The notes beneath the pieces are model-generated. The model saw only the letters and a program-made list of their open reading frames with translations. It was not told where the DNA came from and did not search any database. The translations under genes were made by a program, and so were the position numbers. This document shows, piece after piece, positions 22,195 to 49,799 of a DNA stretch of 49,799 nucleotides. Location of the stretch: the NCBI GenBank assembly GCA_030019415.1, contig JASEEX010000005.1:1-49799 (forward strand), read 5' to 3'. Within the stretch, counting starts at the first letter, position 1. Every line of letters begins with the position of its first letter. This stretch comes from Thermodesulfovibrionales bacterium. Lineage in GTDB: Bacteria > Nitrospirota > Thermodesulfovibrionia > Thermodesulfovibrionales > SM23-35.

Positions 22195-22905
22195 TTACCC
22201 CCAATTGGTGTGGGGGTTTATTTTTTTAATCCTGACTTCTACGATACCGTTCTTATATGTATATGAAAGTGTTTCTTTCTTGACCTGCACAGGTAGAAGG
22301 ACCTCTTTACGATACTTCCTGTTCTTACCCACTGCTGAAATCTCTAATATATCCCCTTTTAAATCTAATGATATGCCATCTTCGCTAACCCCAGGGATCT
22401 CAGCTATAACCACTACCTCATCTTTTTCATCGAACACATCTGATAAGGGCTCCCTCTCTTCTTCTATGACGGGGCCTTCAGGGGTCTTTTTGATATTGCC
22501 GAATTGCTCGATGATAGGCTTGCCTCCTATCCCCATTTTCACGGTGAAGCCATACATCCCTTTAACCTTTTCACCAAGACCTTTTATCTCACCAATTCGG
22601 GTAACCTCCTCTTTCCCCTCCTCAACCATCTTAGAGACGAGATCAAACAGACTGCTGATTCCCTTAAACAGGCCACCAAGGCCAAAATCGATCTCCACAC
22701 CTTCCTTTTTCCTTTTCTCGGTCATTCCAACACCTCCTATTTTTCTTTGTAATTCCTCTAACCTTTGAATTATGATAGGCAAAGGCCTAGTTAAACCCCC
22801 TTCCCATCTCCTCACTGTTTGAAGCGATACACCGAGAAGTTGGGCAAACCTCTCCTGGGATAAACCAAAACTTAAACGCAGGTTCTTAATGCCTTTCCTT
22901 TCCAT
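22195..22905 (-). CDS. HTH (XRE) domain fused to GvpH-like Hsp20 protein
   Basis: The 236-residue frame has two parts. Residues 1-58 are an XRE-type HTH (LRLSFGLSQERFAQLLGVSLQTVRRWEGG). Residues 61-236 are a gas vesicle GvpH/Hsp20 protein starting MTEKRKKEGVEIDFGLGGLFKG and ending in an alpha-crystallin domain (DVFDEKDEVVVIAEIPGV, KNGIVEVRIKK). An internal ATG at 22725 begins the GvpH part and has a strong AGGAGGT 6 bases before it. The locus may therefore make both a DNA-binding chaperone fusion and free GvpH. Small heat-shock folds in gvp clusters are thought to help handle GvpA. The very C-terminus (INPHTNWG) is encoded by a palindrome at ~22198-22218. Confidence 0.75.
   Translation of the reverse strand: MERKGIKNLRLSFGLSQERFAQLLGVSLQTVRRWEGGLTRPLPIIIQRLEELQRKIGGVGMTEKRKKEGVEIDFGLGGLFKGISSLFDLVSKMVEEGKEEVTRIGEIKGLGEKVKGMYGFTVKMGIGGKPIIEQFGNIKKTPEGPVIEEEREPLSDVFDEKDEVVVIAEIPGVSEDGISLDLKGDILEISAVGKNRKYRKEVLLPVQVKKETLSYTYKNGIVEVRIKKINPHTNWG
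22725..22738 (-). promoter_or_regulatory. Internal ribosome binding site and ATG for GvpH part
   Basis: On the minus strand AGGAGGTGTTGGAATG sits exactly where the HTH domain ends and the GvpH-type N-terminus begins. The spacing (6 bases) and strength are better than for most starts in the array, which supports a second translation start inside the fusion. Confidence 0.6.
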
Positions 22906-23172: not shown

Positions 23173-24078
23173 TCAGGTTCTGTCATCAGCATTTAACCTT
23201 TTTGGGATTAATTTCTGCAATCTGACTTCCAGTATATTATTATGGTATCTCTTCATAATCTCTTCGCTCTCAACCTTTGCTGGAAGAGAAATCTCCTCAT
23301 AGTAGTTAGCCTCGGGGGTCTTACAAGAGACTATAAGTTTATCTGCATCAACTCCTAATAATATATCCTCGATTTTCGCACCTTTTAATTCCATAATGAT
23401 ATTTAGATGATCTCCTTCATCAAAGATATCTAATAGCGATTCCTTCCGATCTACTTTTGCGCCGAAGGCGGATAATTTATCGCCTCCAATAATCCACCAG
23501 CTAAACATAACCTTCTTTCCAGTAGGTTCATCAATTTTAGACCTTTCAAATACTAAAACTGGGAAACCTATCAGCTTCTGACTTGTGGGGTTAATAATAT
23601 TTCTTATGCGATGAAGGACATCCATATGATTTACTGCATTATAAGTCTGAGCCAATTCATTAATACTAGCGTGCCTATTTTGCCAGACAAAGAGAAGTAT
23701 ATTTTGGCTCTCAGGGTCCAGCTCTTTAATAATCTTATCTATTTTCTCCTGATTTATTTCTAATAGGCTCCTTTCAAATATCCTATTTTTCCAGGTCTCT
23801 ACATCTTTTACCATAATCCAGGCCTTTGAACTTTCTCCATAGGAAATACAGAGTGCATCTTTACTCCTTAAGATAAAGCCCCTTTGTTGGACACTGATTT
23901 CTTTTATATTTTCCACGAGTGTCTGGAATATAATCCTCGTCGGCTGCCAGAGAAAAAGTCTTTCGTTAGTCAGATATAAATGCCCTGGCTTCCAGCCGCT
24001 GCGCAGATTATCTTTATAAAAACCTGGGTTGGTTAGGATAACTTCTTCATTCGCTTTTAACTCAGGCTTATTTTTCAT
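23173..24078 (-). CDS. GRAM-like domain fused to Hsp20 (alpha-crystallin) domain
   Basis: The ~301-residue protein has an N-terminal GRAM/PH-like domain (residues ~8-105). It contains ANEEVILTNPGFY, W-KPGHLYLTNERLFLW and a following strand-rich region ending before a helical middle (KIDKIIKELDPESQNILLFVWQNRHA, resembling a winged-helix turn). The C-terminal ~100 residues resemble the Hsp20 proteins of this array: LLDIFDEGDHLNIIMELKGAKIEDI, and a final YHNNILEVRLQKL. GRAM domains usually bind lipids or proteins. I know of no standard gas vesicle protein with this layout. The ATG at 24078 follows the upstream TAA by one base. Confidence 0.65.
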   Translation of the reverse strand: MKNKPELKANEEVILTNPGFYKDNLRSGWKPGHLYLTNERLFLWQPTRIIFQTLVENIKEISVQQRGFILRSKDALCISYGESSKAWIMVKDVETWKNRIFERSLLEINQEKIDKIIKELDPESQNILLFVWQNRHASINELAQTYNAVNHMDVLHRIRNIINPTSQKLIGFPVLVFERSKIDEPTGKKVMFSWWIIGGDKLSAFGAKVDRKESLLDIFDEGDHLNIIMELKGAKIEDILLGVDADKLIVSCKTPEANYYEEISLPAKVESEEIMKRYHNNILEVRLQKLIPKRLNADDRT

Positions 24079-24079
24079 C

Positions 24080-24448
24080 TTAGTAATCAATAATCACTTT
24101 TTTAAATGACTTGCCAGAGACTTTTGTGTCATTCTCAGATTGTGATTTATCTTTCTTTCTATAGTATTTATAAGTAAAACCTGGATGTCTGGCTCCACCA
24201 GGTTTACCCCGCCCCTGCGCGCAGGGGCGGGGTTTATTATCTTCATATTCTCTCCGTCTAAATTTTGCCATTTCATCAAATTCTTTCCCTGTAGAATGGA
24301 CTACCTGGCCATCTTCACCGGTTGAGTATTTAACTGGGTATATTCTTCTCTTTTTTAGCAATTCATCCCAATCCATAGCTGTTGAATGTCTCACTCTTGT
24401 CCCACGGCCAGTGGAATATCCCGAAGCTTTAGTTGTCTTGGATTTCAT
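24080..24448 (-). CDS. Small protein with two STG/HST repeats and a palindromic insertion
   Basis: The 122-residue, Lys/Arg-rich protein is not recognised. It contains two copies of a ~24-residue unit: YSTG-x6-V-x-HSTAMDWDELLKKRR (residues 11-35) and YSTG-x6-V-HSTGKEFDEMAKFRR (41-65). Residues ~72-85 (KPRPCAQGRGKPGG) are encoded by a GC-rich perfect palindrome at 24206-24233, inserted in frame. The Ser-Thr-Gly/His-Ser-Thr repeats might be phosphorylation or binding motifs, but nothing shows this. It sits between the TPR/hydrolase-like gene (13 bases upstream) and the GRAM-Hsp20 gene. Confidence 0.6.
   Translation of the reverse strand: MKSKTTKASGYSTGRGTRVRHSTAMDWDELLKKRRIYPVKYSTGEDGQVVHSTGKEFDEMAKFRRREYEDNKPRPCAQGRGKPGGARHPGFTYKYYRKKDKSQSENDTKVSGKSFKKVIIDY
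24206..24233. repeat. GC-rich palindrome inserted in frame in a coding sequence
   Basis: ACCCCGCCCCTGC and GCAGGGGCGGGGT form a 13-bp perfect stem with a 2-base loop inside the small repeat protein. A related but tandem version lies in the first ArsA gene at 28891-28980. Confidence 0.75.
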
Positions 24449-25414: not shown

Positions 25415-26833
25415 TTAAACAAATTGGCGCAGTTTCTCCCTGAATTGAAATTCATAAAGTGCTCTTTCGTAGAGTGTGGCAAGTTCTTCGTCTGTTATAT
25501 GTTCCAATTTGATAATGCCTTTCCCCAGCTGGTATGAATATTGACTCCAGTCTGTAGAGTTTAACATATTATTTTTCTTGCAGTATTCATACAGCCCAGT
25601 TCCAGGGAAAGGGGTTACTATTGAAAAGCCTGCGCTGTCCATTCCATAATCCAAAGCCAACTCTATGGCAAGGTTTATTGTATCCTCAACGGTCTCAACA
25701 GACTCTGTAGGATACCCCATCATAAAGTAGCCGTAAGAAGAGATGCCAATCTTTGAAGTCATCTCTATAGTTTCCTTGACCTGCTTTATGGTAAACCCCT
25801 TCTGGCAAAAGTCCAGTATTCTCTGATTTCCGAATTCGATTCCGTAGAAGATGACCTTACAGTTGGCCTTTTTTAGTTCTTGCAATATTTCTTCAGACAT
25901 AAGGCCAACTCTACCATCGCAAGCCCAAGAAAGCTCATCCAGACCTCGCCTAAGCATTCCCCTGCACAACTCAATAGTCCATTTTTTGTTTACTATAAGA
26001 AGGTCATCAACAAATCTGACATATCTTACAGCAAACTTCTCATAAATCTCATCCAGTTCATCCAGGACATTCTCTACAGACCTCCTGCGGTGCACCCTAC
26101 CCCATATGGCAGGGGCATCACAGAATTGACAAAGGTAGGGACATCCCCTTGTGGCTAACATGGGGCTAAAAGTCTCACCTTCAGTCCATGACCCTTTATA
26201 AACTGAATTCTGTAAAAGCTCCCTGGCAGGAAAGGGTAATGTATCAAGGTCGGCAACATTTGGTCTATCAGGGGTAACAATAACCTTTTCCTTTTCCTTA
26301 AAGGTTATGCCTTTTACCTCTCGGAGATCGCCACCCTCTAAAACAGCTTTAATCAACTCAAGAGTGGTTATCTCACCTTCGCCCCTTACGCAGAAATCAA
26401 CGCATGGCTCATTGATAATAGTTCTATGTTCAAAATGGACATGCGGACCTCCTAAGATTACCTTTACCCCGTTAGAAAATATTCTGCTGTCTTTAGATGA
26501 TTTTCTAACGGGGTTTATATCCGGATTGATTTCTTTTATTCGAGCTGCAAGATAGAGGGCACTGCTAATCCTGGCTGTAATAGCGGTTATCCCAACAAAA
26601 TGGGGGTTCTCTTTTCTGACTTCCTCGATTACTTCATCGTGTGAAAGCCCCCTGCTCCTGGCTTCAATTAGGCGAACATCAATACCGTTCTGCTTAAGGA
26701 CCGCGGCTATATACAAAAGTCCAAGCGGCGGGTAGACCTCATGCATCTGGGTGCTTTGGGATGCACCTTTGTTCTGATAGGAATGAGGAGTCTCATCGGG
26801 TGGGTCGATTAAAATACATTTAATCTTTCTCAT
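25415..26833 (-). CDS. B12-binding radical SAM protein
   Basis: This 472-residue protein has the BchE/P-methylase-like layout. The cobalamin-binding N-terminal domain shows YPPLGLLYIAAVLKQNGIDVRLIEA, VGITAITARI and VILGGPHVHFEH. The radical SAM barrel has the [4Fe-4S] motif RGCPYLCQFC, followed by YVRFVDDLLIVNKKW and a GYPTESVETVEDTI segment. The substrate is unknown. Between INPD and VKVILGG it contains a 17-residue insert (NPVRKSSKDSRIFSNGV) encoded by a palindromic repeat, placed in a surface loop of the B12 domain. It overlaps the ArsA gene upstream by 14 bases, which puts it firmly inside the gas vesicle array. Possibly it modifies a protein or lipid partner. Confidence 0.85.
   Translation of the reverse strand: MRKIKCILIDPPDETPHSYQNKGASQSTQMHEVYPPLGLLYIAAVLKQNGIDVRLIEARSRGLSHDEVIEEVRKENPHFVGITAITARISSALYLAARIKEINPDINPVRKSSKDSRIFSNGVKVILGGPHVHFEHRTIINEPCVDFCVRGEGEITTLELIKAVLEGGDLREVKGITFKEKEKVIVTPDRPNVADLDTLPFPARELLQNSVYKGSWTEGETFSPMLATRGCPYLCQFCDAPAIWGRVHRRRSVENVLDELDEIYEKFAVRYVRFVDDLLIVNKKWTIELCRGMLRRGLDELSWACDGRVGLMSEEILQELKKANCKVIFYGIEFGNQRILDFCQKGFTIKQVKETIEMTSKIGISSYGYFMMGYPTESVETVEDTINLAIELALDYGMDSAGFSIVTPFPGTGLYEYCKKNNMLNSTDWSQYSYQLGKGIIKLEHITDEELATLYERALYEFQFREKLRQFV
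26466..26514. repeat. Palindromic element inserted in frame (NPVRKSS type)
   Basis: CCCCGTTAGAAAAT (26467-26480) and ATTTTCTAACGGGG (26500-26513) are perfect inverted arms around a 19-base loop. The whole element is read in frame through the radical SAM gene as NPVRKSS...FSNGV. A second, shorter copy with the same arms is at 29594-29630 in another gene. Confidence 0.85.
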
Positions 26834-29126
26834 ACATAAAATTAGATAATTTCGTTAAATCGTTTATCCCTCTTATCTCATGCGGATATAGCGGCACCTT
26901 TGCTATTCTATATCCCTTATATTCTGTTTTTTCATCTATCTGTTGTATATAGCTAATCTGCTCATTTCTCTTTGAGCGACAAAAATCGCAATCTGTGGGC
27001 GGAATTAGCATATTAACCAAAATAGTCTTGCAGGGAATACCCAGGTCTCTTATACTAAGAAGGAGGTCTTCAGTCTCAAGCAGGCCCATCGCCTCAGGGA
27101 TAGTTACCGCTATAAATTCTGATTTTTCGGGATTTGTAAGAAAGGCGTGCATTTTCTGCACTGTCTCTTGAGAGGCCAATATCTTTTTGGCTAACACTTC
27201 AATATTATCAACAGGAACTTCTCGATGATATTTTAGAAGTGCTCTATAAGTAATCCTCAGCCACTCCCTAACTAATTCCGGAAATTTTAAAAGTTCAACC
27301 AGATGCCCTGTAGGTGCTGTATCAAAAATATATATATCGAAATCTGCATTTTCAATAAATCCCATAATCTTTTCCAAAGCTAATACCTCTTCCAAGCCTG
27401 GTGGATAAGTATCGACAAATTCAACCATGACCTTCTCATCAAAATCTAACTTCCATTTTCTGCCTCCAGCAAGGTGACTATTCTGCCATTTTTTGAATGT
27501 ATCTTCTATATTTGTTTTATATTCCTTTCTAAAATCTTGATATAATCCTGCTCCATCTATTTCTAATGCGTAAAGATTGCCCTCAACCTTAATAGCAGTC
27601 ACTGTGTCTCCGATGAGTGTAGCAAAACTATCACTCAAAGAGTGAGCAGGGTCAGTAGAGAAAACTAATACTTTTTTGCCGGGATTGTGCCTGGCAATAG
27701 ATACGGCTGTAGCCGCAGAGACTGTGGTCTTTCCTACCCCACCTTTTCCGCCAAAGATAACAAACTGCAATTCCTTATTTAAAATCTCTCTTAACTCTCC
27801 CGGCTGAAAATTATCTTCATCTCTTAAGGGTCCCGATGTAGATTGCGTCAGTGAATATTGGTTACTGTTGCCGGATAAAAACTCACCAAACCTCAATAAC
27901 CCATCTTTCCCACGTACCTCATTGGGAAATACAGGTAGCCTCAGGAGATTGTAAGAAGCGAATTTACTGTCAATCTCTTTGAGGTAACTCTCTTGCCCTT
28001 TTCTTCTGGTTGAACAAAAGGTACACTCCTTTTCTTTTTGAAGACGATTCACAATAATATTACGCACAGGAATACCTTCTTGTTTTAGAGTAGCAAGGAG
28101 CCTCTCTGTCTCTGCTATACTTAACTCTTCTGGAATAGTAACAGGGATAAACTCACAATTTTCTGCATCTTTAAGAATCACTCTTATCTTTTCTAAATCT
28201 TCTGACAATGTATCCAGGAATGTCCGCACGTTGCCTTTTGGCGGCAGGCGTCCGGGTATTCTAAAGCCCAGGGTGGCTACCCCGATTGAAACTCGTTTAT
28301 ACCTAAGAAAGGATGTCTCGAAAAGCTCGATCCATTTGAGGACCTTAGCAGGCAACTCCAGCAGCCTGAGGGTATGGCCTGTAGGTGCGGTATCCCAGAT
28401 TACCATGTCATACTCATAAGGTCTGAATATCCCAAACTTGAGTAAATTCACTATCTCTAAGAGAATCATCATCTCCTGCATACCAGGCAATTTAAAGCTA
28501 AGAAAATCTCTTATATCTATCTGGTCAGTATTGAAAGACATATTATAGAGGTTGGCTATAGAAGATTTGTATTTCTCCTTAAATTTTTCAAGTAGAGCTT
28601 GCGAGTTCATCTCTATAGCCCAAAGGTTATCCACTCCTGTAACAGGCGTAACAGAACTATTTACAGGGCAGTCAAAGCTATCTCCTAATGAATGCGCCGG
28701 GTCGCTGGAGGCAACTAAAAATCTCTTTTCTGGATATTTTCGAGACAGATACATTGCTGTAGCACAGGAGGAGGTAGTCTTCCCAGTTCCACCTTTTCCG
28801 CCAAAGATAACTAATCTTAATTTTTCATTCTTTAAGAAACTAGGCATATTGCTATCAGAATCGGGTTCAGTTAGCTGTAGCTTTTCTTCCTTTACCCTGC
28901 TCCTGCACGCAGGGACAGGGTTTACCCTCGCTCCTCTGTGAGGGGCGGGGTTTACCCTCGCTCCTCTGTGAGGGGCGGGGTTTACCTCTTCATTATTTTG
29001 CACATTCGCTTCGCTCAGTACTCCCTTCGGTCGCAAATCCACTTCAGTTTTACTATGAACTATGTTGAGTTCGTGGCGCTCAATTATTTTTTTAAAGAAG
29101 ATAGCGACCTTATCTTCAGAGTTCAT
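26820..29126 (-). CDS. Tandem ArsA/Get3-type ATPase (copy 1)
   Basis: The 768 residues contain two full ArsA/Get3 modules. The first has FGGKGGTGKTT (109-118), AHSLGDSFD, IWDTAPTGHTLRLL and CTFCSTRR; the second has FGGKGGVGKTT (~455), DPAHSLSDSF, FDTAPTGHLVELL and CDFCRSKR. The CxxC pairs match the zinc/dimer cysteines of Get3. Both modules carry the deviant Walker A (GKGGxGKT) and the switch segments. Family members deliver hydrophobic tail-anchored proteins or drive arsenite export; no arsenic genes are nearby. The first ~93 residues are largely repeat-derived (three in-frame 10-residue units, ~48-77), so the true functional start may be near residue 94. The gas vesicle context suggests handling of hydrophobic shell subunits. 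Confidence 0.85.
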   Translation of the reverse strand: MNSEDKVAIFFKKIIERHELNIVHSKTEVDLRPKGVLSEANVQNNEEVNPAPHRGARVNPAPHRGARVNPVPACRSRVKEEKLQLTEPDSDSNMPSFLKNEKLRLVIFGGKGGTGKTTSSCATAMYLSRKYPEKRFLVASSDPAHSLGDSFDCPVNSSVTPVTGVDNLWAIEMNSQALLEKFKEKYKSSIANLYNMSFNTDQIDIRDFLSFKLPGMQEMMILLEIVNLLKFGIFRPYEYDMVIWDTAPTGHTLRLLELPAKVLKWIELFETSFLRYKRVSIGVATLGFRIPGRLPPKGNVRTFLDTLSEDLEKIRVILKDAENCEFIPVTIPEELSIAETERLLATLKQEGIPVRNIIVNRLQKEKECTFCSTRRKGQESYLKEIDSKFASYNLLRLPVFPNEVRGKDGLLRFGEFLSGNSNQYSLTQSTSGPLRDEDNFQPGELREILNKELQFVIFGGKGGVGKTTVSAATAVSIARHNPGKKVLVFSTDPAHSLSDSFATLIGDTVTAIKVEGNLYALEIDGAGLYQDFRKEYKTNIEDTFKKWQNSHLAGGRKWKLDFDEKVMVEFVDTYPPGLEEVLALEKIMGFIENADFDIYIFDTAPTGHLVELLKFPELVREWLRITYRALLKYHREVPVDNIEVLAKKILASQETVQKMHAFLTNPEKSEFIAVTIPEAMGLLETEDLLLSIRDLGIPCKTILVNMLIPPTDCDFCRSKRNEQISYIQQIDEKTEYKGYRIAKVPLYPHEIRGINDLTKLSNFMYEKD
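28891..28980. repeat. Three tandem 30-bp palindromic units within the ArsA gene
   Basis: Two identical 30-bp units (28921-28950 and 28951-28980, beginning TTTACCCTCGCTCCTC) and one diverged unit (28891-28920) are tandemly arranged. Each encodes ten residues in frame (NPAPHRGARV twice, NPVPACRSRV once). There are no spacers, so this is not a CRISPR array. The core resembles the single GC palindrome at 24206-24233. Confidence 0.85.
28998..29042. repeat. Dispersed repeat of TTCGCTTCGCTCAGTACTCC type in ArsA 5' region
   Basis: The stretch reading ATTCGCTTCGCTCAGTACTC then CCTTCGGTCGCAAA is translated as part of the ArsA N-terminus (LRPKGVLSEAN). Similar TTCGCTCGGGACTCTC then TTCGGTCGC sequence occurs at ~35596-35625 in the GvpG-like gene, so it is a dispersed repeat captured in coding sequence. 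Confidence 0.5.
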
Positions 29127-31529: not shown

Positions 31530-31604
31530 CGTTCGTCGCTACGCTCCTCACTTTTGGTAATTGGTAATTGGTTAAATGGTTAAATAATTACCAGTTATTC
31601 AGCT
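31530..31604. repeat. Spacer: GTCGCTACGCTCC element plus TTAACC-type repeat
   Basis: Upstream of dnaK the spacer has GTCGCTACGCTCC (31535-31547) followed by GGTAATTGGTAATTGGTTAAA and GGTTAAATAATTACC (31555-31597). On the minus strand the first piece gives GGAG before the start codon (14-base spacing). Both parts recur before other genes of the array. Confidence 0.6.
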
Positions 31605-32692
31605 GATAAAGCTACTTTGGTTATTTTCTTTTTTAGCCTGTGGCTGACCCAGCCACAGTTTGGGCAACCCTTTTCTAATAGTTCTAAAACAATTGCCTTC
31701 TTTCCGCATTGAGGGCAGGCTTCTATTCTTTCTCTGAATGAGATGATTCGGGCAAGTACCCTTTCCCATTCGAACATCCCATCCCCTGAAAAAGAGGCAA
31801 CCTTTCTTTCCGTAGTATCTTCATATATCACATCAAAAATCCTTTTCTTCTTTAATACCGGGCTTAAATTCCTCACCTCTATAGTAGAACCTAATATCTT
31901 TTCTGTAGGAACTTCGAAAGCCAATCTTTTTTCAAAATCACACCACCAGCATAGCCTCTTATTTGTTATATAGAGATGGCCCGGTTTCCAGGTCTCTTGT
32001 TGAATACCGGAAGCAGGAACTAAATACCATACCTTTTCCCCTCGGTGAGTAACCTCTTCTCCTTCTGTCAGGAAGTCAATTGGTCCCTCTTCAAACTCTG
32101 GAAGCACAGGGCTCTCCTCTAAAGAAAGCCCCGTAGTTTCTAAATTTTGCTCAATAGCATCTTTTAACTGGTTTGTTTCTACTGCGCTAAGCCGATGCAC
32201 TTGATCCTGTTTATCCATAAGATAAAGTACCTGTTTTTTCTTTTCTTTAACAAAATGCGCCTCCTCTCGCATTACCAATGCTTTTATTTCTTCTAATGGT
32301 ATCTGAAATGTGATTTCATCAAAATCTTGGCGGTAAAGAATAAGCCTTTTGTTAGTCAAATAAAAATAGCCTGGTCTCCAGGCATTATATATCCCTTTGC
32401 TGTAATAATAAGAGCCATGCATTTTCAGGGTAATCTCTTCTCCTTCAACTAAAGAAGGGGTATTTTTCTTCCAATGCTCTCTCTCCCAGGCCCGTATTTT
32501 CTCATCCCATGCCTTCATCATCCCATACTTGAGCATAGTCTCCATGCCAGCCAGGGCGGCTCTTAAATTGACGCCGATTAAAGGGATGCCGGCCACAGAG
32601 ATGATAATGTCAGCATTGATTACCAATCCTTTATCTAAGATTCGATCTAACAGATCTACTAAGGTTGCATGTGTATTTCTGGATGGTTCCAT
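31595..32692 (-). CDS. GvpA/GvpJ-family protein fused to two GRAM-like domains and a zinc ribbon
   Basis: The 365-residue protein starts with a GvpA/J shell domain (residues ~8-60: ATLVDLLDRILDKGLVINADIIISVAGIPLIGV...AALAGMETMLKYG). A helical linker is followed by two GRAM/PH-like domains. One is at ~80-185 (LVEGEEITLKMHG, AWRPGYFYLTNKRLILY), the other at ~207-320 (LTEGEEVTHRG, TWKPGHLYITNKRLCWW). The end is a zinc ribbon, CPQCGKKAIVLELLEKGCPNC. Ordinary GvpJ proteins are ~100-150 residues. The layout suggests a minor shell protein carrying an adapter that could bind lipid or partners. It starts at an ATG preceded by GGAGCGAAGCGACAG, a repeat that supplies the ribosome site. I know of no described homologue with this architecture. 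Confidence 0.8.
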   Translation of the reverse strand: MEPSRNTHATLVDLLDRILDKGLVINADIIISVAGIPLIGVNLRAALAGMETMLKYGMMKAWDEKIRAWEREHWKKNTPSLVEGEEITLKMHGSYYYSKGIYNAWRPGYFYLTNKRLILYRQDFDEITFQIPLEEIKALVMREEAHFVKEKKKQVLYLMDKQDQVHRLSAVETNQLKDAIEQNLETTGLSLEESPVLPEFEEGPIDFLTEGEEVTHRGEKVWYLVPASGIQQETWKPGHLYITNKRLCWWCDFEKRLAFEVPTEKILGSTIEVRNLSPVLKKKRIFDVIYEDTTERKVASFSGDGMFEWERVLARIISFRERIEACPQCGKKAIVLELLEKGCPNCGWVSHRLKKKITKVALSAE

Positions 32693-32825: not shown

Positions 32826-32855
32826 TTACTCATTCGCCTTTAGACGAATGAGTAA
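32826..32855. repeat. Perfect hairpin spanning the GvpF/L stop codon
   Basis: TTACTCATTCG (32826-32836) and CGAATGAGTAA (32845-32855) form an 11-bp stem with an 8-base loop across the end of the GvpF/L-type gene. The terminal residues and the TAA are inside the hairpin. No U tract follows, so intrinsic termination is doubtful; mRNA 3'-end protection is possible. Confidence 0.6.
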
Positions 32856-33649
32856 GGTGGCCAGGGACCGGTAAATCGAATGATTAAACCATCTTCTTTT
32901 TTAATCTCTTCTAAAACATTGCCAAGTTTTTCGACATTTTCATTGGCAACCAAACAAGATAAGTTCATAATCATCTGCAAGTTCTCATCCACCTTTTTAG
33001 TCTTCTCTATACGAATATCAAAAACTTCTTTTTTTATCCGGGTATAAAAGTCCTTAAAATATTCATCGGCCTTTTTCTCCATCTCTTTCCTTAATACATT
33101 CTTTATCTTTTCTTCATACATATAAGCTGTGCCCGGTGGTTTTGATTTTAACTCCTCTTTCAAATTCTTAATCTCTGTGGTATTTTGGGCTATTCTTTCA
33201 ACTATAACCTTAGGACTCCATAAGACCTGAACTCCATATTCTGCTTTGCCTTTAACTTTATTTAATTTTTCTTTTAGATTCTGGTAATCTTTTTGTAGCC
33301 ACTTTCTCATGTTTTCTTTTGGGTCTATATCCTCTTCTCCTATAATTATGGTATCAAAAGCTAATGGCAACACAGCGCCGAACTTTTGCCAGGCACAATC
33401 TACTACATTTTGGTGAGTCATTACCCAATTCTTTACTATATCTCTATCTTTTGATTCGTAGGGGCGAGATTCACAGTTATGAACAATAGCTGAAATTTCC
33501 TGGTATGGAAGAGCGTAGACCTCACTGCCATCAATTCCAATCTCACCAAAATTTACCTTTTCATTGCCATCTGCTATGCAGTAAAGATATATTGCCTCTC
33601 TTTTTAATTCTCGATTCTCGATTCTCGATTCTTGATTTGCATTATTCAT
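32840..33649 (-). CDS. gvpF/L: Gas vesicle protein GvpF/GvpL family (copy 1)
   Basis: The 269 residues have the GvpF/L landmarks. The N-terminal strand is AIYLYCIADGNEK, then FGEIGIDGSEVYALPYQEISAIVHNC. The middle has WVMTHQNVVDCAWQKFGAVLPLAFDTII, followed by a helical region with YGVQVLWSPK, and the C-terminal end is GLIIRFTGPWPPYSFV. GvpF/L proteins are minor structural/assembly factors that contact GvpA. The N-terminal ~16 residues (NNANQESRIENRELKRE) come from a short tandem repeat (ATTCTCG, 33605-33634). It is the most diverged of the four copies and lies just downstream of gvpK. Confidence 0.9.
   Translation of the reverse strand: MNNANQESRIENRELKREAIYLYCIADGNEKVNFGEIGIDGSEVYALPYQEISAIVHNCESRPYESKDRDIVKNWVMTHQNVVDCAWQKFGAVLPLAFDTIIIGEEDIDPKENMRKWLQKDYQNLKEKLNKVKGKAEYGVQVLWSPKVIVERIAQNTTEIKNLKEELKSKPPGTAYMYEEKIKNVLRKEMEKKADEYFKDFYTRIKKEVFDIRIEKTKKVDENLQMIMNLSCLVANENVEKLGNVLEEIKKEDGLIIRFTGPWPPYSFV
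33605..33634. repeat. ATTCTCG short tandem repeat at gene start
   Basis: The sequence repeats ATTCTCGATTCTCGATTC and then degenerates, inside the first codons of the GvpF/L-type gene. It encodes QESRIENRE. A comparable CATCGAG/CATCCAG repeat lies just outside the gene (33682-33704). Confidence 0.5.
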
Positions 33650-33702: not shown

Positions 33703-34026
33703 CTAAATTCTCGCCTTTTCTGCTTCTTCTTCCCATCTCGTAGGATTGACTATTTTATCTATAACATCATTAACTATATTATCCAAACCATCTCTTACTG
33801 ATTGAACCGCTTCTCCAACTCCCTGTTCCTCTTTTATATGCTCTATCGCAACGTCAAGTTCCTTAAGCGCCCTGCCCAGGCGCTCTATCTCTTCTTCGTT
33901 TAAGCTTCCGCCCTCCATCCGCCTCACTGCCTGCAGCTTCAATGCATCCCTGATTATCTCAACCAAGGCAAGCACAAGACCTAAAACCCCACTTTTAAGA
34001 TTATCTTCATTGATATCTATAGGCAT
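33703..34026 (-). CDS. gvpK: Gas vesicle protein GvpK
   Basis: The 107 residues match GvpK in length and pattern. It has INEDNLKSGVLGLVLALVEIIRDALKLQAVRRMEGGSLNEEEIERLGRALKELDVAIEHIKEEQGV (the conserved core, listed here in pieces: NLKSGVLGLVLALVEIIRD, ALKLQAVRRMEGG, LGRALKELDVAIE). GvpK is required for vesicle formation in several organisms and is thought to act in assembly. The C-terminal tail (DNIVNDVIDKIVNP) is slightly longer than usual. It sits between GvpH and GvpF/L genes and starts at an ATG with the GGAGCGTAGCGACAG repeat as its ribosome site. Confidence 0.93.
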   Translation of the reverse strand: MPIDINEDNLKSGVLGLVLALVEIIRDALKLQAVRRMEGGSLNEEEIERLGRALKELDVAIEHIKEEQGVGEAVQSVRDGLDNIVNDVIDKIVNPTRWEEEAEKARI

Positions 34027-34145
34027 CTGTCGCTACGCTCCATATTGGTTAAATAAAAACCATTTAACTATTTAACTCATGAGTACCGAATTCTCTTTTA
34101 ACATAACTCGGTACTCTCAAGTATTTAACCTTTTAACCATTTAAC
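34027..34145. repeat. Spacer: GTCGCTACGCTCC element, TTAACC repeats and a GAGTACCGA hairpin
   Basis: Between gvpH and gvpK lie the CTGTCGCTACGCTCC element (34027-34041), then GGTTAAAT and ACCATTTAACTATTTAAC. A hairpin of GAGTACCGA (34081-34089) and TCGGTACTC (34108-34116) follows, then TTAACCTTTTAACCATTTAAC. No gene is present. Confidence 0.65.
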
Positions 34146-34767
34146 TTTTCTCTATTTTAACTTCCAGAATTCCGTTTTTATACGCCTTCTCTAATTTCCC
34201 TTTAGGTTCACAGGGGAGTTTCAACTCTTGATGATACTTACAGTCAGGAATATCTACAGATATGGTAAGTTTATCTCCTTGCAAATTAAGATTTATATCC
34301 TTCTCTTCAACCCCGGGTATCTCAGCAATCACTTTAATATGGTCTTTCTCATCAAAGATATCTGGTAGCCTTTCCTCTGGCTTAGGTGGAGGGCTTTTGG
34401 GTTTTTCTGCCGGTGGTCTTTCTTTGACAAAATATCTCTTTGCTGGCCTACCTCGCACACCCGGGGGTATACCTATAGAGATGCCTCGGTCTTCTTCAGC
34501 TCTTCTTAAAGGAGCTTCTCTTATCTTACGTTCTACCTCCTTCTCAATCTGTCCTAATTTTTCTTTAAATGCTGGAGACCTCATCACTCCCTTAAGTAGA
34601 CCCTCCAGACCCGGGATCATTCCCCCAACTCCCTTAAGGATTCCCTCTACTATGCCTTCAGACTCCTCTTCTTTTCCTTCAGCTTTTGCTTCTTTAAGTT
34701 TTCTTATCTCTTCTTTAAGTTTTCTTATCTCTTCCTCTTTTTCATTCTCTTTCTTACCCATTTTCAC
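34141..34767 (-). CDS. gvpH: GvpH-type Hsp20 protein
   Basis: The 208 residues have a highly charged N-terminal coiled coil (residues 1-45, EEEIRKLKEEIRKLKEAKAEG), the gas-vesicle-specific stretch EGIVEGILKGVGGMIPGLEGLL, a Pro-rich linker, and a C-terminal alpha-crystallin domain. The last includes LPDIFDEKDHIKVIAEIPGVEEKDI, LNLQGDKLTISV and YKNGILEVKIEK. GvpH proteins resemble small heat-shock proteins and are thought to chaperone GvpA or other shell components. It is located between the GvpA/J-zinc-ribbon gene and gvpK, which is a typical place in gvp clusters. It is closely related in its C-terminus to the proteins at 22.2 and 23.2 kb. Confidence 0.85.
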   Translation of the reverse strand: MKMGKKENEKEEEIRKLKEEIRKLKEAKAEGKEEESEGIVEGILKGVGGMIPGLEGLLKGVMRSPAFKEKLGQIEKEVERKIREAPLRRAEEDRGISIGIPPGVRGRPAKRYFVKERPPAEKPKSPPPKPEERLPDIFDEKDHIKVIAEIPGVEEKDINLNLQGDKLTISVDIPDCKYHQELKLPCEPKGKLEKAYKNGILEVKIEKS

Positions 34768-34806: not shown

Positions 34807-35157
34807 TCATTCTGCCTTTATCCCCTTTGCCCTTGCACTTATCCAACCGCACCAGGGACATCCTTCATCGAGTAATTCTTCTGTTGGGACTTTTTTCCCG
34901 CATTGTGGACATTCTTCTTTACCCTTCAACGCCTCTTTCCAGGCTGCTGTTTCAACATCAGTGCCAGATGGAAATTCGAGGCCATACTTTGCTGCTGTCT
35001 CAAAAGAAGCTAACGCTGCCCTTATCTTAATTCCCAAAAGCTCAACCCCGGCAACAGATATAGCGATATCGGCATTTATCACTAAGCCCTTATCCAAGAC
35101 CCGATCTATAACATCAACTAAAGTAGCACTTGTCTCTCTTGTCGCCTCTATTGCCAT
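34807..35157 (-). CDS. gvpJ: GvpA/GvpJ-family shell protein with C-terminal zinc ribbon
   Basis: These 116 residues have a GvpA-superfamily core (residues ~10-60: SATLVDVIDRVLDKGLVINADIAISVAGVELLGIKIRAALASFETAAKYG). In true GvpA the middle is normally DAWARVSLVGIE and the helix ends in YLxYAE, so NADIAISVAG fits GvpJ/M types better. After a short linker it ends with a four-Cys zinc ribbon, C83-x2-C86 and C100-x2-C103 (CPQCGKKVPTEELLDEGCPWC). The same ribbon closes the GvpJ-GRAM protein at 31.6 kb. It is a probable shell or edge component with a cytoplasm-exposed binding knob. It starts at an ATG with GGAGATAATAGAA upstream. Confidence 0.85.
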   Translation of the reverse strand: MAIEATRETSATLVDVIDRVLDKGLVINADIAISVAGVELLGIKIRAALASFETAAKYGLEFPSGTDVETAAWKEALKGKEECPQCGKKVPTEELLDEGCPWCGWISARAKGIKAE

Positions 35158-49225: not shown

Positions 49226-49799
49226 CTATTTCTTCATGGCAAAATACAATGAGCCTTCTTTTTCTACCCTCTCTTCATCAAGGAGCGCTCGAATTACAGG
49301 GATTAAAGTCCTCCAATTCTTCAGACCCAGTATATCGGACACCTGAGTCATTCTTAGGCCCCCCGGACTCTCTTCCAGGGTTTTCAAGACTTGTTCTTTC
49401 AAGCCTTCTTCAACCCTTTCTGCCTCTTCAAAGGCTTCTTCAAGAAGTCTTTCTTCTTCTATTACTTCTGGAGGCCTTGCCTCTTCAATTACTTCTTTCA
49501 CAGGTCTTACCTTTACCTCTGCCTTAACCACTGGTTTAATTCCTCTTTTCTTAGCCATCGTAGACAACAGATCTTTCCAGGCTCTAGCAGTTTCTACCCG
49601 CTCTTTCTTATAATCTGCCAGAAGATCAGCAACCGCAGCGGCTCTCTCATTATCCTCTGCATTAAACCCCTGAAGAAGCTTGGAAACATCAGCGGCCCTA
49701 GCTTTATCTTCTTCCTTACATTCACTTAAGTACTTAGCCATATCCGCAGCTCTAGCTTTATCTTCTTCCTTACATTCACTTAAGTACTTAGCCATATCC
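49226..49799 (-). CDS. Repeat-bearing helical protein with winged-helix end (cut by window edge)
   Basis: At least 190 residues; the 5' end is beyond the window. The visible N-terminal part has two exact 18-residue copies (MAKYLSECKEEDKARAAD), then diverged copies (VSKLLQGFNAEDNERAAA, VADLLADYKKERVETARAW), all amphipathic helix. A Pro/Glu/Val-rich middle (VKAEVKVRPVKEVIEEARPPEVIEEERLLEEAFEE) follows, and the last ~60 residues form a winged helix (GGLRMTQVSDILGLKNWRTLIPVIRALLDEERVEKEG). The tandem helical repeats recall GvpC, which wraps vesicle shells, but its repeat unit is normally 33 residues. The 54-bp DNA unit repeats exactly at the edge, so the gene continues and may hold many copies. 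Confidence 0.7.
   Translation of the reverse strand, partial: DMAKYLSECKEEDKARAADMAKYLSECKEEDKARAADVSKLLQGFNAEDNERAAAVADLLADYKKERVETARAWKDLLSTMAKKRGIKPVVKAEVKVRPVKEVIEEARPPEVIEEERLLEEAFEEAERVEEGLKEQVLKTLEESPGGLRMTQVSDILGLKNWRTLIPVIRALLDEERVEKEGSLYFAMKK
49709..49799. repeat. 54-bp tandem direct repeat in coding sequence
   Basis: Between ~49692 and the window end, a 54-bp unit containing TCTTCTTCCTTACATTCACT and TAAGTACTTAGCCATATCC occurs twice exactly, each encoding 18 residues. The second copy is cut off by the window edge, so copy number cannot be known here. Confidence 0.75.

Follow-up and report, generated by a model that had tools for sequence, protein, structure and literature searches.

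The 49,799-nucleotide stretch of DNA analysed here (the window) comes from contig JASEEX010000005.1 of a Thermodesulfovibrionales bacterium and contains a gas-vesicle (gvp) gene cluster. One gene of the cluster encodes a protein in which a GRAM/PH domain and an Hsp20 domain are joined through a third domain, designated X (GRAM-X-Hsp20, hereafter the fusion). This gene, its domains, and the genes on either side are as follows.

23173..24078, minus strand: GRAM-X-Hsp20 gene, 301 aa (ORF and translation)
23764..24078, minus strand: GRAM/PH domain, residues 1-105
23473..23757, minus strand: domain X, residues 108-202, probable winged helix
23191..23442, minus strand: Hsp20/GvpH alpha-crystallin domain, residues 213-296
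24080..24448, minus strand: STG-repeat protein gene, 122 aa, upstream and co-operonic (no Pfam match; homologs only in contig L018 of a related genome, G401)
22195..22905, minus strand: HTH-GvpH protein gene, downstream (HTH_3 38.8 bits, HSP20 22.0 bits, NF041800 151 bits, above the cut-off of 140)

The first-pass annotation had placed a two-part fusion of GRAM and Hsp20 at 23173-24078. These coordinates are correct and belong to a minus-strand gene; its ATG is at 24078 and its stop codon at 23173-23175, with an alternative TTG start at 24090, whereas the plus strand of the same interval contains many stop codons. Both predicted parts are present, but the count of two domains does not hold, as the roughly 95 aa that separate them form a third domain, which had been overlooked. 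The ortholog of the gene, at L018:7035-7946, encodes a protein that is 81% identical in the best segment. Gene order around the fusion is the same in the window and in L018, and G401 has further gvp genes elsewhere in its genome. Comparison of the two genes gave a dN of 0.127 and a dS of 0.866, for an overall dN/dS of about 0.15; the individual domains range from 0.13 to 0.15, and the linker between X and Hsp20 is free to vary. The ortholog, the conserved gene order, and the low dN/dS together establish a real, constrained gene, and purifying selection throughout the protein therefore indicates that all three domains are in use. Genome searches recovered the fusion in two genomes only, its own (G000) and G401.

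Like known gas-vesicle accessory proteins, the fusion is encoded in a gvp cluster, here one with J, K, L/F, M, N, and O genes. The stop codon of the upstream STG-repeat gene lies 1 nt before the ATG of the fusion, and the identical 1-nt junction in L018 suggests that the two genes are translationally coupled. The STG-repeat protein belongs to a family of small proteins with S/A-T-G-x-G repeats and no Pfam match, represented by 24080-24448 (minus strand) and by two copies in L018 (736-1128 and 6707-7045). Genes for a B12-binding radical SAM protein (25415-26833, minus strand) and a duplicated ArsA ATPase (26820-29126, minus strand) adjoin the fusion in both the window and L018; ArsA is already known from gvp clusters (PMC2963123). 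Repeated MAKYLSECKEEDKARAAD segments, possibly GvpC-like, occur at 49226-49795 (minus strand) and at L019:89-442. In the window, the MAKYLSECKEEDKARAAD segments run into an assembly N stretch just past the window end.

A second block of the cluster bears directly on the fusion.

34807..35157, minus strand: GvpJ-zinc ribbon gene
34141..34767, minus strand: GvpH-like Hsp20 gene of the J-H-K-L-M block (Pfam HSP20 22.1 bits)
33703..34026, minus strand: GvpK gene (Pfam GvpK 71 bits)
32840..33649, minus strand: GvpL/GvpF gene (Pfam 218 bits)
31595..32692, minus strand: GvpM-GRAM-GRAM-zinc ribbon gene, encoding the 31.6-kb protein (Gas_vesicle 62 bits, GRAM 26.3, Vps36 GLUE 32.4)
32129..32467, minus strand: GRAM 1 of GvpM (profile E 5.7e-42)
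31739..32083, minus strand: GRAM 2 of GvpM (profile E 3.1e-34)

The 31.6-kb protein had been labeled GvpJ-GRAM. By NCBIfam scores, it is GvpM-like rather than GvpJ (98 bits with NF046091 GvpM, 57 bits with GvpJ), and it is the short 34.8-kb protein that scores as GvpJ (NF046090, 103 bits, versus GvpM, 59 bits); all four scores are below the curated cut-offs. The distinction matters because, in Halobacterium, GvpH attaches to the C-terminal part of GvpM and keeps GvpM from aggregating (PMC6107691, PMC7688916), activities that are established for the Halobacterium protein only. A CPxC...CPWCGW zinc ribbon is present on GvpJ (34807-35157, minus strand), on GvpM-GRAM-GRAM (31595-32692, minus strand), and on an Hsp20 protein of a third genome, G014 (L020:5323-5733).

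The N-terminus of the fusion was expected to share a sequence pattern with the 31.6-kb protein, and it does. Its WKPGHLYLTNERL matches WRPGYFYLTNKRL and WKPGHLYITNKRL of that protein, BLASTP aligns it with the two GRAM domains at 2e-11 and 2e-7, and a leave-out profile, built from the other GRAM domains without the fusion and its ortholog, finds it with an E value of 1.1e-18. An AlphaFold2 model, calculated from an alignment to which the window and L018 contributed five divergent GRAM sequences, has a mean pLDDT of 88.9. It contains seven strands (residues 13-23, 30-37, 40-45, 48-54, 58-68, 71-80, and 84-90), which form a barrel capped by a C-terminal helix (residues 93-104). PH and PH-like domains lead the Foldseek search (GRK2 PH, 1.3e-5; Vps36 PH, 2.3e-5; Lam6 PH-like, 1e-4). 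VIA comparisons agree, with Z scores of 13.1 for GRK2 PH (rmsd 2.7 over 99 residues), 12.7 for MTMR2 PH-GRAM (rmsd 2.0 over 96 residues), and 12.6 for Vps36/EAP45 GLUE. The best PDB sequence matches to the GRAM profile are the PH proteins BBS5 and TAPP1, with weak E values of 0.015 to 0.13. The model thus assigns residues 1-105 to the PH/GRAM fold with high confidence, and the lack of structural similarity to GRAM/PH folds that would have spoken against the earlier assignment was looked for and not found. The fusion misses the Pfam GRAM cut-off (PF02893, 23.6 bits), being unmatched in hmmscan and scoring 11.4 bits in a genome search, whereas the homologous domains of GvpM pass it. Resolution in the GRAM tree is poor, and the only groupings are those of the GvpM GRAM2 copies (90/93) and of the fusion with its ortholog (94/99).

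The shared W-x-x-G-x-LYLTN-x-RL string had been taken to suggest a common target, membrane or protein, for the GRAM domains of this system. It is an ordinary signature of GRAM/PH strands 2-3, with a similar pattern in BBS5, and thus shows a common family but not by itself a common target. A membrane target would mean that the GRAM domains of the fusion and GvpM attach to lipid head groups and tether the assembly factory, or the gas vesicle itself, to the cell membrane. We consider this unlikely. Phosphoinositide binding is frequent among GRAM/PH folds, the nearest folds include the lipid binders MTMR2 PH-GRAM and TAPP1 PH, and the net charge of the domain is +4 in the fusion and +6 in the ortholog. 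Across all GRAM copies, however, net charge ranges from -3 to +14, and the window's GvpM has two GRAM domains that are both slightly acidic, so charge lends no support to a shared anionic-membrane target. In addition, gas vesicles are not membrane-bound, and the usual phosphoinositides are absent from most bacteria. Archaeal CheF provides a prokaryotic precedent: its PH-like domains, which lack a lipid site, have been interpreted as protein platforms (PMC9126983). CheF, with its tandem PH domains, shares the seven-strand, C-terminal-helix fold with the fusion GRAM, as do MTMR2 PH-GRAM, Vps36 GLUE, and GRK2 PH; these relatives have other partners and less than 20% identity, and their ubiquitin, phosphoinositide, or CheY binding has no counterpart in the evidence for the fusion GRAM. 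A protein target or a GRAM-GRAM contact would fit the known GvpH-GvpM interaction better than a shared anionic membrane.

The C-terminal half matches the Hsp20/GvpH domains of the array, as the first-pass annotation had proposed. It is 41% identical to the Hsp20 protein of the J-H-K-L-M block and 35% identical to the other Hsp20/GvpH protein of the cluster (BLASTP 1e-16 and 2e-13), and a leave-out Hsp20 profile built from these sister proteins finds it with an E value of 4.6e-19. The similarities at both ends of the fusion thus greatly exceed what chance would give. Its predicted alpha-crystallin beta-sandwich is that of the Hsp20/alpha-crystallin superfamily. With the weak full-length model, Foldseek matches the alpha-crystallin domain of Sulfolobus Hsp20.1 (4rzk; E 5.5e-5, prob 1.00, 32% identity), and VIA gives middling Z scores of up to 7.6 for alpha-crystallin domains; the sequence evidence for Hsp20 identity is stronger than the structural evidence. 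The fusion scores 63.6 bits with the NCBIfam archaeal Hsp20 model NF041800, below its cut-off, and likewise stays under the Pfam thresholds for GvpH, GRAM, and HSP20. Pfam GvpH (PF05455) does not match it in hmmscan, and the sister proteins reach 11.6-14.7 against a cut-off of 22. Because this model is not reached, "GvpH-like" as applied here denotes kinship through the sister proteins rather than filed family membership. Haloarchaeal GvpH and the fusion are alike in having a C-terminal alpha-crystallin domain, a gvp operon context, and GvpM as the expected client. They differ in that haloarchaeal GvpH has neither GRAM nor X, while the fusion lacks the N-terminal region of GvpH. The downstream sister protein (22195-22905, minus strand) carries an XRE-type HTH in-frame at its N-terminus, with an internal ATG at the usual GvpH start; among the GvpH proteins of relatives, it alone was found to have an HTH.

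Domain X has no Pfam match above cut-off and no PDB sequence match. In the full-length model (pLDDT 50), too weak to define how the domains are placed relative to one another, X is predicted at a pLDDT of about 40-67 to have three helices and then a beta hairpin, the order of a winged helix, and it is probably a winged-helix domain. A Pfam Death-domain match in the middle of the fusion (19 bits, cut-off 22.6) was rejected because the ortholog lacks it. When plasmids were searched by tblastn, X found proteins in Natrinema zhouii (33.7% identity, 6e-10) and Natronococcus occultus (31%, 2e-4), and an X profile finds both at 3e-16 and 2e-11. The alignment of the four X sequences has 22 invariant columns. 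A survey of 19 related genomes, the majority gvp-positive, found X only in G000 and G401. A match in genome G300 (L071) was rejected as chance, since it is antisense to a 1088-aa ORF, and the haloarchaeal X protein (P0002) matched nothing in phage records. The two haloarchaeal hypothetical proteins, WP_226778586.1 and WP_245549726.1, share X (27-34% identity) and a gvp-cluster location with the fusion; they lack GRAM and Hsp20 and have a different N-terminal extension.

In both plasmids, the X gene, unannotated in the Natrinema and Natronococcus gvp clusters, has the GvpJ-zinc ribbon gene on one side and gvpK on the other; gvpL and another GvpJ/M-type gene come after gvpK. The window's GvpJ-zinc ribbon protein is 62-64% identical over its full length to the Natrinema, Natronococcus, and Streptomyces proteins, and the slot between J and K that holds X in the two haloarchaea holds an Hsp20/GvpH gene in the window. 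Block order is thus J-H-K-L-M in the window (H being Hsp20), J-X-K-L-M-type in Natrinema, and J-M-K-L in Streptomyces. Given its position between the GvpJ-zinc ribbon gene and gvpK, X appears to be an unannotated gas-vesicle accessory domain common to bacteria and archaea. A different role would follow if X were a DNA-binding winged helix, in which case the fusion would control gvp transcription, with GRAM and Hsp20 sensing free Gvp subunits. The helix-helix-helix-hairpin suggested by the model, the XRE-type HTH on the sister GvpH, and a very weak TrmB/HTH score of the haloarchaeal X protein are consistent with such a regulator. X, however, is almost neutral (12 basic versus 11 acidic residues) and is above cut-off for no DNA-binding family, and the haloarchaeal gene lies inside a structural/accessory block with a separate TetR regulator present. 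Regulation is a rather improbable function for the fusion.

The repeated tie between GRAM and gas-vesicle components, first proposed from the window alone, extends to other genomes. The GRAM profile finds three domains in the window's own genome, six in G401, and one in G014, and all ten are in gvp clusters or contigs. They are carried by GvpM-GRAM-GRAM-zinc ribbon (in the window and in G401), by GvpM-GRAM (G014), by the fusion, by a protein consisting of GRAM alone (L018:1608-2033), and by a 423-aa GvpK-GvpM-GRAM-GRAM protein encoded on contig 225 of G401 (L079:700-1971). In genome searches of the GRAM-bearing genomes, neither of two generic Pfam models, GRAM and bPH_3, produced a match over its cut-off, and their best own-genome matches were the cluster's own GvpM GRAM domains. 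On a plasmid of Streptomyces sp. SGAir0924, a 303-aa "GvpJ" is GvpM-like (NF046091, 92 bits) and contains a single clear GRAM domain (5.7e-14) plus another stretch whose match to GRAM is weak. Its cluster runs J-ZnR, M-GRAM-GRAM, K, L, and the J-ZnR protein is 64% identical to that of the window. As this GvpM-GRAM-GRAM is outside the group, the link between GRAM and GvpM is not an accident of a single lineage. The GvpM-GRAM-GRAM(-zinc ribbon) proteins of the window, G401, and the Streptomyces plasmid share homologous GRAM domains and a gvp-cluster setting with the fusion; they carry a GvpA/J/M-type shell-protein core in place of X and Hsp20.

Gas_vesicle genes occur in 15 of 296 genomes of the phylum sample. 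The other gvp clusters examined in the phylum have no GRAM and often encode GvpJ-GvpK fusions instead (L056, L057, L058, L059, L060, L061, L062); extended GvpJ proteins of these clusters, considered as GRAM carriers, proved to be such fusions. GRAM was not found in 145 relatives of G401, and no stretch of the viral contigs matched the GRAM pattern. Weak matches to the GRAM profile are present in G237, G288, G045, and G048. The observed spread of GRAM-Gvp and of X is a lower bound.

Our studies lead us to propose, at somewhat better than even confidence, that the fusion is a GvpH-type gas-vesicle chaperone adaptor, brought to GvpM by docking through its GRAM domain. GRAM occurs in GvpM, Hsp20 in GvpH, and X in haloarchaeal clusters, and all three domains are thus linked to gas vesicles independently. 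The alpha-crystallin chaperone domain would be carried on an adaptor made of GRAM/PH and the winged-helix-like X. Hsp20 would hold aggregation-prone GvpA/J/M-type subunits, GvpM above all, as Halobacterium GvpH does. Because the client GvpM itself has two GRAM domains, the GRAM domain of the fusion could dock the chaperone beside its client, at the complex where GvpM-GRAM is installed. Docking might be GRAM to GRAM, or both proteins might use their GRAM domains to bind a single partner within the GvpF/L-K-J complex. X may add a protein contact at the J-K place that is held by X or GvpH in related operons. A counterpoint is that the cluster has two other Hsp20 proteins, and the fusion may act otherwise. 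Alternatively, it might coat or cap the finished vesicle in the manner of GvpC, its GRAM meeting that of GvpM at the tips. The GRAM domains on GvpM and the fragile vesicles made by Halobacterium without GvpH (PMC6107691) are compatible with a shell-associated stabilizer, but GvpC-like repeats are not seen in the fusion, and an Hsp20 domain speaks for a chaperone that acts transiently. We regard stabilization as improbable.

Beyond the chaperone-adaptor role of the fusion itself, we see about an even chance that GRAM/PH is a dedicated docking module of a cross-phylum gas-vesicle assembly subtype, joining a GvpH-type chaperone, GvpM, and GvpK in a single complex, and that X is an undescribed accessory family of bacteria and haloarchaea. 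In the open-access literature searched, no paper paired "gas vesicle" with "GRAM domain," or combined it with "PH domain" and "gvp." The roles of the accessory Gvp proteins, and the way in which they find one another, have long been an open question, to which a GRAM docking domain would bring a new, testable ingredient of gas-vesicle building. The analysis also names X, an unannotated accessory domain that gvp clusters of haloarchaea contain, organisms with established genetics. That GRAM, X, and Hsp20 are each found on their own in other gas-vesicle genes as well points to the fusion being a dedicated assembly helper. With a suspected chaperone and its suspected client fused to the same domain family, the GvpH-GvpM step would gain a direct, testable hypothesis.
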